Under the pieces are notes generated by a model. That model ran no database searches and had not been told where the DNA came from. It was given only the letters and a program-made list of their open reading frames with translations. From the NCBI GenBank assembly GCA_011087765.1, contig JAALLA010000013.1:1-42302 (forward strand): a stretch of DNA of 42,302 nt, written 5' to 3'. Source of the DNA: Pirellulaceae bacterium. Lineage in GTDB: Bacteria; Planctomycetota; Planctomycetia; Pirellulales; Pirellulaceae. Positions 1,145-5,950 of the stretch are shown one piece after another (the first letter of the stretch is position 1; each line of letters opens with the position of its first letter). A program made the translations under genes and the position numbers.

Positions 1145-1849
1145 ATGAGAACATTATTGTTTGTTGTATGGATGTTAATCCCGGTCGGCGCGCTCGCCTA
1201 CCATTTGGGACCTGGTCAGGGGGATCTCAAGAGTGATCGCGCGGCTCAGTTGCTGGCTCAAGCAGATAGCTGGGTAGCTGAAGAGCAGTGGCCCAAGGCG
1301 ATTGAAAATTATAAAGAAGCTTTGGATTTACTTCCTGAAGACGATCTTGCGACTCAGCGTAAAACCAGGCTTGAGCTTGCCAAATGCGAAATCCATAACA
1401 GTGGTTTACCTCAGGCGAATGAAGATTTAAAAGTGCTTGTTCAGGAATTGATGGATGATCCTGAAAGTGATCCTCAAATCTTGTCGGAATCGCGAATCGC
1501 ATTGGCGAATTCACAGTTTTACATTACTTGGTTGATGAGACTCGAAGGCCGCCCTCAGGAGGCCTGGGAGCCGGAGATTACATCCTCTCAGCAGATTTAT
1601 CGATTGCTTGCCGAACAGTCGGAAGACGGTTTGGATTCGGATGTGGTTTTAAAACGCAAGTCAGATCTTGAGTCTTCGGTTAAGTTAGCACGAATGGATA
1701 TTGGCGAATTGCAGGGGTTGCCTCTGCCAAGCCAATGAGCTGGCTGAAATTCATCTTCCAAACGCGGTCGCGTTGGTCAGCCCGGTAAAAAGAAAAAAGA
1801 TGCTCGTGGAGCAAGTGCGGGAATTCCCGCAGATGGATCTGGCAGTTAG
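1145..1849 (+). CDS. Secreted TPR protein, probable selenoprotein with C-terminal U-x-x-U
   Basis: ATG 1145 follows AAAGGA at good spacing; a longer open frame to TTG 1097 lacks such a site. Residues 1-18 are a signal peptide or membrane anchor. A TPR motif lies at about 31-66 (AKAxxYxxAL type), with more helical repeat to about 185. A standard reading stops at TGA 1736-1738 (197 aa). The same frame continues Q-TGA-A-G-TGA-N (codons 198 and 201), then 33 codons rich in Lys, Gly and Ser (SSSKRGRVGQPGKKKKDARG and onward) to TAG 1847-1849. The tail resembles, from memory, Cys-containing tails of planctomycete TPR proteins. A SECIS-like hairpin lies directly after the second TGA, and a terminator follows the TAG, not the first TGA. 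Two selenocysteines at CxxC spacing would suggest a redox or metal-binding role outside the cytoplasm. The alternative is true termination at 1738 with a relic tail. Confidence 0.7.
1758..1776 (+). promoter_or_regulatory. Candidate bacterial SECIS hairpin
   Basis: CCAA (1758-1761) pairs with TTGG (1773-1776). A1762 is bulged. CGC (1763-1765) pairs with GCG (1770-1772). The apical loop is GGTC (1766-1769). Exactly 18 nt separate the second TGA (1745-1747) from the loop, and 27 nt separate the first TGA (1736-1738) from it. From established knowledge, the E. coli fdhF SECIS has a GGUC-containing apical loop closed by a short stem, one bulged nucleotide below it, and about 18 nt between UGA and the GG. 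The bulge here falls at nearly the same position. The hairpin lies inside coding sequence, as bacterial SECIS elements do. Confidence 0.7.
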
Positions 1850-2131: not shown

Positions 2132-5100
2132 ATGCATCAATCAAAACCTTGGCTCGGGATCATGAATTTTGTTTTCACGGCCTTAATCTTGGCGTTGCCG
2201 GCAAATTCATTTTTGAATGCTCAGACGAAACCGGCCATTCGATTAGTACCGGCAGTGAAAATTCCGGCAACAATCGGGCGGTCAGTGCAGGGAGTGAGAA
2301 TTCAAGACCCAGAGTTCCCTCAGGTGTTGCCGCCGGTTGATGAGCGGGGGGCGGTGGCGACTCCAGGTGAGGGTGCGGCAGCATCTAAATCCAAGAGTGA
2401 GAGTACAAACCGTCTGAAGACGCTCGCGAAGTTAAAATTGAATCGCCTTCCATCGAATATTCTTGAAACCTGGTACAAGGATGGGGAGCGTAGCGGGGAG
2501 CAGGATCTGCCGCCCGCGCCACGACTTGCATTTCTGGCAAGCGACGCCCGATTCAAGCGAGCAGTGAAGCAGCTTGAGAATGATTTTACTCTGGGGAATT
2601 GGAATGAAGTTGGCGACTTTCTTGCCAAGATTCCTCATGAAAATGCAAAAGTCGTTTATCGTCAAATTTTAACTTCGGCTTCGAATTCCAATGCACTGAC
2701 CTTTCAGGGAGGGAACGCCGTTCGCTCGCAGGTGGACCCGAGGGCACTCCAACCCCAATACCTAACGTTCGATGATCTGTTTTCGATCGCCGCAATTGCG
2801 CCTAAAAAAACTGACGCAAAAAATGAGGTAGGTTTACCCGATGAGTATTTGAATTTTTTCGCTTCGGCTTTTCGCGCTACGATAGCCAGAGGTAACATGT
2901 CGGAAGATCTAATTACGCGTCTTGAGATGGAACTGGAGAACAAACCGGTTGTGTTTACCAAACGCCAATGTGCAAAACTTTTGTTTAGTGCAGGTCTGGC
3001 TATGGACGTTGGTGAATTTTTACCTGAACTCGCCTTGGCGATGTCGAATAACGATCATGAAGCTCTCAATTTACTCTCTCAGTACCAATTAGCTCTCTAC
3101 TCCAAAGAGAAGAAGACGGAGCATTTGGAAGGCGCCTGGAATGTGACACAGGCAATTCTCGCCGCAGAGGATGTCGATGAAACCCAGCGAAATGCAGCGT
3201 TGGGGCGTGCGGTCGAATTATCCTCGCAGGTTAAAACTGAGTTGGGTAACAAGTGGCTAAACGACAGTTTCGTGGCCAAGCCTGAAGTTGGAATGGAAGT
3301 GCTTGGAGCCATCGGTGTCGATACGTCGAAGTCACTGAAAACAAGTCCGCGGAACCCAGAGACGCGTTTGAATCGACTGAAATTGCAAGACGAAGCAGTC
3401 ACCGCCTTATTTCAAGCCTCTCCGGAACAGGCCTCTGAGTGGAAGAAATTACTTGAGTTGTTAGCCGTAAATTGGTTGCGAGAAGCAGAGATCTCATATT
3501 CTGACGATAAATCGTCGTCGATGGGGCCAACTATGCAGCGTGATCAGTATGGCAATATTTTTTATAGCAACACTGGATCGTCAATTTCCCGTTCAAGAAA
3601 TTTACGATTATCTGCGATTGGCACAGGAGATTTGTTAGAAATACGTCCGTCTGAAGACTGGTTGGCTTTGGTTGGCCCAACCTTGCGTCCTAAATTTGAT
3701 TCCGTTCTGGCCCAGCTTTATCTCAAAGTTTCTGAAGAAGATTTAGCACTGCCTTACATTGAAAAACTGGGAAAAGATCACCCGGAAAAAGCTGAGTCAT
3801 TAGTCAACGAATACATTTCGGTTTGGACGCGTAATCACAATCCCAATAGTGATCGCCGGCGCACTAACAGTTACATGTTTATGTATGGTTTTGAAAGTCG
3901 CGCCGAATCGATTCCATTGACGCGGTCAAAACAAAATCGGAATCTTGAGGAATTAGCGGGCTTAGTGGTTCGCTTGAATAAGTTGATTGAGAATAAATTG
4001 GACGAAAAGTTGGTGGTGATGGCATTTGTTTCCTGTCACAGCACTGCCGAGGTTTACGAGTTGGACGAAATCGAAAAGGTGTTTGGGCCTGTCGGAGAAA
4101 TTGACTCAGAAACAATCGCTGTGCTCGCATCGTCCATGCGTCGAAATCTTGCCGGCATGTGGCGTGACGCAAAAGTTCAAAAGGATAAGAAAACGAAACG
4201 TAAGAAGAAAGAAATCGAAAAAGAAGTTGTCGACGGCTATCTGTTAGCTCAGAGACTTGTTGAGAATGCGATTGCCCGCGATCAAGACTCCTGGCAACTG
4301 ATTAGAACGCAGGCAGAGTTGTTGCACGATGAAAATAATTATCGCGCTGGAATTAAAAATAGTTCCGAGTTTTCACCGCGAAGAAAAGAAGCAATGGCAT
4401 TGTTTCAGGCATCCGCTGAACGATATGCACGCCAAGTTGAACAGATGGAGCCGAGTGAGTATGTCAAGTATTCGCCATTCACTTCCTGGTTTTATGCGAG
4501 TCTTGGAGCGTGTGATTTAGGTCTTATTGAGAATAAGAATCGGACCGATCCGAAGCAGGCGTCCTTGATTCGCGAGGGGATATTATCTTTGCCGAAGGCA
4601 GTTTCCGAATTCCATATGGCTCAGTTTGCAAATTCGCTGTTTAATCGAATGAGCAGTGTCAAGCCGCAACTCAAGCATAAATATCTTGATCTGGGACTCT
4701 CCATTGTTGGGGATCATAAGCAGGCGAGTGAGGCCATCAAGGTCCATGAGTACTACAAAGACCTTGTTAGCGAAATTCGACTCGAAACGCGAGTTGATGG
4801 GGATGCAAGGGTTGGTTTTGACCAACCGTTCGGGGTCTACGTTGACCTCGTGCACACCAAAGAAATTGAACGCGAGTCCGGTGGATTCGGGAGATATTTG
4901 CAAAACCAAAATAGCAGCGTCGCGTTCTCTTATAACTACGGTCGACCGACGAATGACTACCGGGATAAATTTGAGGAATCGGTTCGAGAGACTTTTTCTG
5001 AACAATTCGAAGTTATGTCAGTGACGTTTCAGAAACCGGATGTTCAGTCCATCCCAAGTAATAAACCGGGCTGGCGTGTTACCCCTTATGCTTACATTTT

Positions 5101-5950
5101 GTTGAAGTCGAGAGGGCCGCAGGTCGACAAGGTCCCGCCCGCTCATTTAGATTTAGATTTTTTAGATACCTCGGGCTATGCCATATTGCCAGTTGAGTCC
5201 GCCGTCCTGCCGGTGGAATCTGCTTCCGCTTTGCCGCGGCCCATTGGGAAATTATCTGTCACACAGATTTTAGATGAGAGGCAAGCCGGGGAAGGAAAGT
5301 TAGTATTGGAAATTAAGGCAAGTGGTCAAGGACTGGTTCCCGAACTCGATTCGATCGTTTCTATCGCCCCTGATGATTTTGAAATTTCCGAAATACAAGA
5401 TAATGGAGTCTCGGTTTCTCAGTTCGATCCAACAACGCGGAAGCCAACCATTAATTCTGACCGGTCCTGGTTGGTTTCACTGGAGGCAAAACCCGGGCTG
5501 GCTGAAAAACCAGCGACGTTCTCGTTTCCACAGGCAAACGTTGAAATCGAAGATCTGATTTTTCAACGTTACAATGATGCTGATCTTGCTGTCGCAGAGG
5601 CCACGATCAAATTGAATGCGGACTACGGAAAACGTAGTTCCGCCAAAACCATCTGGGCTGTAATTGGGATTCTTTCGTTCGGCGTTGCTATTTTAGTTGG
5701 TGTTATCGGTTACCGGCGGAGAACTCCCGAAGCGCAGGAAAATCGAGAACTCGTGCTGACTGAGAACATATCGCCGTTTGCTGCGATTTCTATGTTACAG
5801 GATATTTACGACTCGGACGGAGTGAGTAACGAACGCAAAAGTGAGTTGGCGACAACAATCACCAAGCTAGAAGCGCATTACTTCGGTTTTAAACCGTCTG
5901 AGTCCAAGCCAAACGTTGTGGAAGAGTTGCAGAAATGGACACGTTCTTAG
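2132..5950 (+). CDS. Very large membrane-anchored exported protein, unknown function (1272 aa)
   Basis: I do not recognise a named domain. An N-terminal signal sequence (hydrophobic core NFVFTALILALPANSFL) is followed by about 1150 exported residues. Roughly residues 100-900 are helix-rich and solenoid-like, with a very basic patch near 680-700 (KDKKTKRKKKEIEKE). Residues about 900-1170 are beta-rich, with phrases such as GKLVLEIKASGQGLVPEL. One membrane helix follows at about 1174-1194 (IWAVIGILSFGVAILVGVIG), then RRR and a 78-residue cytoplasmic tail. This is a type I topology. ATG 2132 gives the longest product; ATG 2162 just before the hydrophobic core is also possible, with a GGGA nearby. 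It may be a planctomycete-specific surface or scaffold protein, but that is inference. It is transcribed separately from the TPR gene because of the terminator at 1881. Confidence 0.85.
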   Translation: MHQSKPWLGIMNFVFTALILALPANSFLNAQTKPAIRLVPAVKIPATIGRSVQGVRIQDPEFPQVLPPVDERGAVATPGEGAAASKSKSESTNRLKTLAKLKLNRLPSNILETWYKDGERSGEQDLPPAPRLAFLASDARFKRAVKQLENDFTLGNWNEVGDFLAKIPHENAKVVYRQILTSASNSNALTFQGGNAVRSQVDPRALQPQYLTFDDLFSIAAIAPKKTDAKNEVGLPDEYLNFFASAFRATIARGNMSEDLITRLEMELENKPVVFTKRQCAKLLFSAGLAMDVGEFLPELALAMSNNDHEALNLLSQYQLALYSKEKKTEHLEGAWNVTQAILAAEDVDETQRNAALGRAVELSSQVKTELGNKWLNDSFVAKPEVGMEVLGAIGVDTSKSLKTSPRNPETRLNRLKLQDEAVTALFQASPEQASEWKKLLELLAVNWLREAEISYSDDKSSSMGPTMQRDQYGNIFYSNTGSSISRSRNLRLSAIGTGDLLEIRPSEDWLALVGPTLRPKFDSVLAQLYLKVSEEDLALPYIEKLGKDHPEKAESLVNEYISVWTRNHNPNSDRRRTNSYMFMYGFESRAESIPLTRSKQNRNLEELAGLVVRLNKLIENKLDEKLVVMAFVSCHSTAEVYELDEIEKVFGPVGEIDSETIAVLASSMRRNLAGMWRDAKVQKDKKTKRKKKEIEKEVVDGYLLAQRLVENAIARDQDSWQLIRTQAELLHDENNYRAGIKNSSEFSPRRKEAMALFQASAERYARQVEQMEPSEYVKYSPFTSWFYASLGACDLGLIENKNRTDPKQASLIREGILSLPKAVSEFHMAQFANSLFNRMSSVKPQLKHKYLDLGLSIVGDHKQASEAIKVHEYYKDLVSEIRLETRVDGDARVGFDQPFGVYVDLVHTKEIERESGGFGRYLQNQNSSVAFSYNYGRPTNDYRDKFEESVRETFSEQFEVMSVTFQKPDVQSIPSNKPGWRVTPYAYILLKSRGPQVDKVPPAHLDLDFLDTSGYAILPVESAVLPVESASALPRPIGKLSVTQILDERQAGEGKLVLEIKASGQGLVPELDSIVSIAPDDFEISEIQDNGVSVSQFDPTTRKPTINSDRSWLVSLEAKPGLAEKPATFSFPQANVEIEDLIFQRYNDADLAVAEATIKLNADYGKRSSAKTIWAVIGILSFGVAILVGVIGYRRRTPEAQENRELVLTENISPFAAISMLQDIYDSDGVSNERKSELATTITKLEAHYFGFKPSESKPNVVEELQKWTRS

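Follow-up and report, generated by a model that had tools for sequence, protein, structure and literature searches.

The window that we analysed is a stretch of 42,302 nucleotides (contig C220 of genome G000, positions 1-42302) from a draft genome of 371 contigs that is 88% complete. On its forward strand, positions 1145-1849 hold a gene that, when TGA is translated as selenocysteine (Sec), runs from the ATG at 1145 through the residues PSQ-U-A-G-U-N to the TAG at 1847-1849. The product of 234 residues consists of an N-terminal hydrophobic helix, a TPR scaffold, a C-terminal U-A-G-U motif and a tail. The two in-frame UGA codons lie at 1736-1738 (U198) and 1745-1747 (U201). A first-pass annotation had followed the TPR frame past both codons to the TAG and had noticed their CxxC spacing, and translation bears it out on both points; its description of the tail as an Asn followed by 33 codons is one too long, since the 33 residues after U201 include the Asn. 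The tail (forward strand, 1748-1846) is rich in lysine and glycine and ends in DARGASAG-PADGSGS, and within its coding sequence lies a hairpin resembling a SECIS apical stem-loop (forward strand, 1761-1774).

Downstream on the same strand, a consensus scan marks a terminator-like hairpin followed by a T run at 1881-1910. Its stem starts at 1881, 31 nt 3′ of the TAG, where the first-pass annotation had placed a terminator, but it says little by itself for the longer gene, because 1.7 such sites are expected by chance in this region and the scan found 2. Next comes a large gene at 2132-5950 (forward strand, 1272 residues), whose product has hydrophobic segments near the N-terminus and around residue 1170 and no significant Pfam match. 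Directly upstream of the selenoprotein gene is an LptE-like gene (293-910; PF04390, 4.1e-08), the position of which is occupied in a related genome (G285) by a 195-residue gene. Further upstream, a short open stretch at 126-270 was seen by eye to begin like positions 356-480 (MKA-S/P and a hydrophobic segment), and it reads as if it were a copy of the start of the LptE-like gene.

In a first scan for relatives, nine genes with 65-95% identity in the best segment were found in MAGs assigned to Mariniblastus, Pirellulaceae, Planctomycetaceae or Planctomycetota, and all nine carried both TGAs and the in-frame tail. These are the same genes as those in the genomes counted below (L006, for example, is a contig of G285) and were counted once. 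When genome collections were searched, the gene was matched in 43 of 296 genomes from the order (counting weak partial hits, at E ≤ 0.001), and in 56 of 241 genomes of the family and 68 of 397 genomes of the class (both at E ≤ 1e-12). At that last threshold, twelve genomes of the same genus lacked the TPR gene in the family search of 241. A TGA occupies the motif in 49 genomes; 37 of these belong to the order and the other 12 to the rest of the class.

The Sec forms fall into three arrangements: UxxU, as in the window; U-x-x-T-U, in which the second Sec stands at +4 instead of +3; and UxxC, with Cys at +3. In the Cys forms, cysteine takes the first site and +3, and often +4 as well. The first set that we read comprised 53 genes, with 35 Sec forms (10 UxxU, 15 U-x-x-T-U and 10 UxxC) and 18 Cys forms; the final set has 49 Sec forms, one for each of the 49 genomes, and 28 Cys forms, under motif rules that accept only U or C at the first site. 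The 53 were drawn from 74 loci by setting aside Cys forms with P-K-E-C (L032, L033, L035-L038), loci without the motif (L045, L117, L119), loci without a start by rule (L044, L115, L116, L118) and eight exact duplicates (L002-L005, L007-L010); L046-L052 lay outside the 74. L115 and L116 re-entered the final set used for the hairpin, and L118 did not. The class-wide search added 24 loci, with L138 and L148 left out as motif-less and most rows flagged "none" left out of the reading. L138 (G674) had been flagged with one TGA.

Alignment, sequences and tree agree that homologues have Cys at the UGA position. Planctomycete TPR proteins with Cys in a similar tail had been mentioned in the first-pass annotation, and such homologues do exist: the near homologues have TGA or Cys at the same place together with the conserved tail, and none of them ends tailless at the first stop. 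More distant relatives (L044, L045, L047-L051, L052, L117, L119) have neither the Sec nor the Cys pair. In a 60-row tree that uses the protein up to the motif, the ten UxxU forms make up one clade (100/98), and Cys occupies their second Sec site in the UxxC and CxxC forms. The Cys forms require at least five changes on this tree, three of which well-supported branches make unavoidable; several changes are likewise required for the other Sec arrangements. Sequencing error as the source of the TGAs was rejected, because they recur in 49 genomes, two of which are assembled as one contig (G371, G482). The 9 Mb contig of G482 carries four copies of the gene (L145-L148), two with CKGCC, one with UQGC and one, L148, that is motif-less by rule, and these copies are a natural set of Sec and Cys paralogues.

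The sequence beyond the UGAs evolves as a coding sequence. In seven orthologues that align with the window without gaps, the differences in the tail fall mostly at codon position 3 (for example, 7 of 7 in G285, 6 of 6 in G377 and 11 of 15 in G372); the 90 nt after the stop codon differ from the window at 21-66 positions when compared without gapping. The table from which these counts were taken has 43 rows, eight of them duplicates. The in-frame, protein-like tail described earlier is, by the bias toward third-position differences, conserved beyond chance, and the UGAs therefore lie within a conserved coding region, as in a bacterial selenoprotein.

Bacterial selenoprotein mRNAs are defined by a hairpin just 3′ of the UGA with GGU in its apical loop, and the SECIS of Escherichia coli fdhF has a GGUC loop 18 nt after its UGA. 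The window has the same loop at the same distance: AACGC (1761-1765) and GCGTT (1770-1774) enclose GGTC (1766-1769), which lies 18 nt 3′ of the second UGA and 27 nt 3′ of the first. The window's strand does not stand out when folded alone (z = -1.66, with 11 of 200 shuffled versions folding equally well), and no Rfam SECIS family matches the hairpin. It is the comparative evidence, not the fold of this one strand, that carries the case for the hairpin. A stem five or more pairs long that is tipped by GGU, sought in no fixed register by a rule defined after the sequences had been seen, is present in 48 of the 49 Sec forms and in none of the 28 Cys forms. The GGU is found 18-33 nt after the last UGA: at 18 nt after the second UGA in UxxU forms, at 21 nt in U-x-x-T-U forms and at 19-33 nt after the single UGA in UxxC forms. 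The sole Sec form to fail the rule, L097, folds with a bulge, and in five others (L113, L114, L137, L139, L147) the first G of the GGU is taken up into the longest stem.

CGC-GGT-CGC is found in frame in most Sec forms. The hairpin is not accounted for by the encoded residues alone, because randomisation of synonymous codons yields it in only 8.7% of trials on average and in at most 24.2% for any one tail. In an independent energy fold, the GGU fell within an apical loop for 34 of 35 Sec forms and 0 of 18 Cys forms; the loop of L091 is in another register, and L073 was missed despite having a stem in the register-free test. When forms were taken as independent, stem pairing scored 162 against a mean of 138.5 and a maximum of 150 in 10,000 shuffles, with a fixed register that is wrong for L089, L097, L113 and L114. 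The outer pairs of the stem covary across forms (AA/UU, GC/GC, GU/AC, GA/UC, AG/CU, AC/GU). The window's longer outer stem is not kept in L074 and L075. The SECIS-like hairpin that the first-pass annotation had placed after the second TGA is thus present and is kept across the Sec forms.

The genome of the window possesses the machinery for decoding UGA as Sec. Its tRNA-Sec scores 67.4 bits, over the cut-off, and is called SeC with anticodon tca by ARAGORN; SelB (369 bits), SelA (590 bits) and SelD (259 bits) are likewise over their cut-offs. The search for these four genes that had been proposed as a check therefore found each of them, and an absence of selB and selC, which would have spoken against recoding, is not seen even in this draft. 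The SelD match (C351, 748-1656) lies within a 740-residue open frame, as it does in G285, and the frame in G109 has 767 residues; judged from these frames, SelD of G000 is probably fused to another domain.

Among genomes of the order, SelB is over cut-off in 35 of 37 that have a Sec form and in 10 of 36 others (Fisher p = 1.5e-9, with genomes taken as independent). The sample of 73 consists of 30 of the 43 genomes from the order search, 13 weak matches being left out, and 43 from the family search, in which G352, G353, G360 and G364 of the 56 were left out; the 12 Sec genomes outside the order are not part of it. Split by search, the figures are 5 of 5 Sec genomes against 3 of 25 others and then 30 of 32 against 7 of 11. 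Both Sec genomes in which SelB was missed (G332, G334) are drafts, 78% and 82% complete. In the eight of the 30 genomes that have SelB, SelA is over cut-off in 8 and SelD in 7 (G050 being the exception). The tRNA-Sec model RF01852 exceeds its cut-off in 13 of these 30 genomes and also in 5 of 14 controls; at 64 bits or more, a line drawn after the fact, it picks out the same eight genomes as SelB, and the next best score is 51.9 bits.

Sec/Cys exchange, the conserved tail, the hairpin and the Sec machinery all support the interpretation first put forward for this locus. Judged from sequence comparison, we consider it almost certain that 1145-1849 is a bacterial selenoprotein gene in which both UGAs specify selenocysteine.

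The AlphaFold model of the window protein, computed with Cys in place of Sec, has a mean pLDDT of 82.9 and consists of helices at residues 2-20 and 23-183 and a short helix at 186-190. It displays a scaffold of repeated helical pairs, as expected of a TPR protein; Pfam TPR matches are below gathering, and a PDB search gave no match at E ≤ 0.001, its matches being mostly generic TPR or other helical-repeat chains. Confidence falls below a pLDDT of 50 at residues 205-227 and 230-234, and the block means are 83 for residues 191-200 and 50 for residues 201-210. In the model, U198 and U201 are predicted to lie where the ordered TPR scaffold ends, at the base of a disordered tail and not deep within it. 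The model lends no support to a freely swinging arm bearing U198, because the mean for block 191-200 is 83.

The gene order around the TPR gene is MoxR-DUF58-x-VWA-VWA-TPR-large protein. In 21 loci (20 and the window, each read for up to 20 kb), the large protein of 1235-1639 residues is in every case the first family member to follow the TPR gene on its strand; a MoxR family member is present in 17, the first VWA family in 13 and the second in 14, DUF58 in 11 and an unnamed 280-residue family in 13, and some of the genes are fused. At one locus (L054), MoxR, DUF58 and both VWA proteins are over Pfam gathering. Genes for MoxR, DUF58 and two VWA proteins do stand beside the TPR gene, and we call this arrangement Bat-like. 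It is not a Bat operon proper, as the NCBIfam models for BatA and BatB score 48.8 bits (cut-off 380) and 38 bits (cut-off 350), and the large neighbour was rejected as a BatD because it has no Pfam BatD match. In G000 and G285, the MoxR, DUF58, unnamed and two VWA genes occur together but away from the TPR gene (in G000 on another contig, C115, at L123 6425-11223), and the operon is therefore split in that lineage. In G021 and G176, the operon genes were not seen within the stretch read (up to 20 kb). Relatives that lack the pair (G071, G192, G220, G261, G231, G270) have the same kind of operon, which indicates that the family can do without the Sec/Cys pair. A search for a conserved Cys partner in the other operon members gave a few columns that are at least half Cys and nothing clear.

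One interpretation of these observations, to which we would assign a probability of roughly 0.7 as a whole, is that the gene encodes a selenoprotein with a redox-active Sec pair that works in a Bat-like complex. SelB and Sec-tRNA would bind the hairpin at 1761-1774, and both upstream UGAs would be decoded as selenocysteine; if so, one hairpin serves two UGAs that are 9 or 12 nt apart. The N-terminal hydrophobic helix may anchor or export the protein, and this hydrophobic stretch suggests that the TPR domain faces the periplasm, where, as the gene order hints, it might dock into the MoxR/VWA membrane complex together with the 1272-residue neighbour. There, the Sec pair could be a redox centre that cycles between a diselenide and its reduced form, with UxxC forms cycling via a selenenylsulfide and CxxC forms via a disulfide, and it could reduce partner proteins or pass electrons in the periplasm. 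We infer the redox role of the pair in the complex at even odds. The fullest version of the proposal, that a family without an oxidoreductase fold has a diselenide-forming pair at the end of its TPR scaffold and that this pair serves a Bat-like MoxR/VWA membrane machine as its redox centre, is more tentative and falls a little short of even.

Two alternatives would do away with selenocysteine. Translation table 11 ends the frame at 1738, and the gene might stop there, leaving the tail as a relic or untranslated; we rejected this as highly improbable, given that Cys homologues translate through the tail, that Sec forms retain it in frame with differences mainly in third positions, and that the hairpin and SelB are present. 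Equally improbable is decoding of the UGA as some other amino acid, or ordinary readthrough of a stop, for which the open frame is the only argument. Where near homologues lack the UGA, they have Cys at the site, and tRNA-Sec and SelB are both at hand. Moreover, the terminal stop is itself TGA in 6 of the 35 distinct Sec-form genes (L026, L073, L085, L087, L092, L103), one of the genomes, G371, belonging to the genus of the window, and UGA therefore still stops translation in Sec-form genomes. In these six genes, a single mRNA uses UGA both for Sec and as a true stop.

The nearest rival to the redox mechanism accepts the selenoprotein and assigns the same motif to the binding of a metal ion or metalloid instead of thiol-selenol redox chemistry, with the Bat-like complex inserting or handling metal as some other MoxR/VWA pairs do. 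Many Cys forms carry extra Cys residues, such as CKGCCSGECNCKCKK in L039 and two CxxC in L040 and L042, and the MoxR/VWA pair NorQ/NorD is reported to be needed for iron insertion (PMC9976466). The Sec forms, by contrast, have either two Sec or one Sec and one Cys, and their tails are otherwise free of Cys; a 2026 review deems most uncharacterised selenoproteins likely to be redox proteins (PMC13188914). We think that metal binding is unlikely, though far less so than a frame that ends at the first UGA, and we favour the redox-active Sec pair.

The family does not appear to have been named before. No NCBIfam model was over its cut-off for 10 Sec forms and 7 homologues, and neither TPR nor Bat proteins are entered in the portion consulted of a 2026 table that covers 119 families of prokaryotic selenoproteins (PMC13188914); an already named selenoprotein family was rejected on these grounds. 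The main text of two further papers contains neither "TPR" nor "planctomycet" (PMC9312934, PMC12013277), and no TPR or Bat selenoprotein occurs among the literature matches listed. Sec usage in planctomycetes has been described, and table S9 of that study, which lists selenoprotein candidates of two planctomycetes, may hold an earlier mention (PMC4807772). The novelty suggested by the first-pass annotation holds only within the databases and literature searched. Within them, the gene adds a selenoprotein family found in 49 planctomycete genomes, in which the end of the protein is lost if the UGA is read as a stop. For asking what selenium contributes, the family offers a natural series of UxxU, U-x-x-T-U, UxxC and CxxC forms, and the Bat-like operon gains a residue that can be tested.

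The arrangement can be set beside several known systems. The Prx-like oxidoreductase, the FmdB family and the NF041115 metal-binding protein are UxxU or UxxC selenoproteins and likewise have a pair of UGAs spaced as in CxxC, or a single UGA with a Cys at +3; a published survey (PMC13188914) names them among oxidoreductase, regulatory or metal-binding families, whereas in the planctomycete family a TPR scaffold precedes the pair and U-x-x-T-U forms occur too. RavA-ViaA and NorQ-NorD, both MoxR/VWA chaperone pairs, are alike in joining a MoxR ATPase to a VWA partner and unlike in that no TPR selenoprotein is mentioned in the abstracts listed. A third likeness is to the Bat (Bacteroides aerotolerance) operon, in which MoxR, DUF58 and two VWA genes are likewise followed by a TPR gene and a large gene; the differences are that the NCBIfam Bat models remain under cut-off here and that the large neighbour is not BatD by Pfam. 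We know of no described Bat TPR protein with Sec or a conserved CxxC. One study describes VWA and TPR domains in Bat proteins, partial rescue of a B. fragilis bat mutant by reducing agents, no oxidative-stress role in L. biflexa bat mutants, and a proposal that Bat proteins act by reducing damaged proteins in the periplasm or by exporting reducing power to it (PMC3557215). If the redox reading is correct, a diselenide pair would be the chemistry that this old proposal has been missing.
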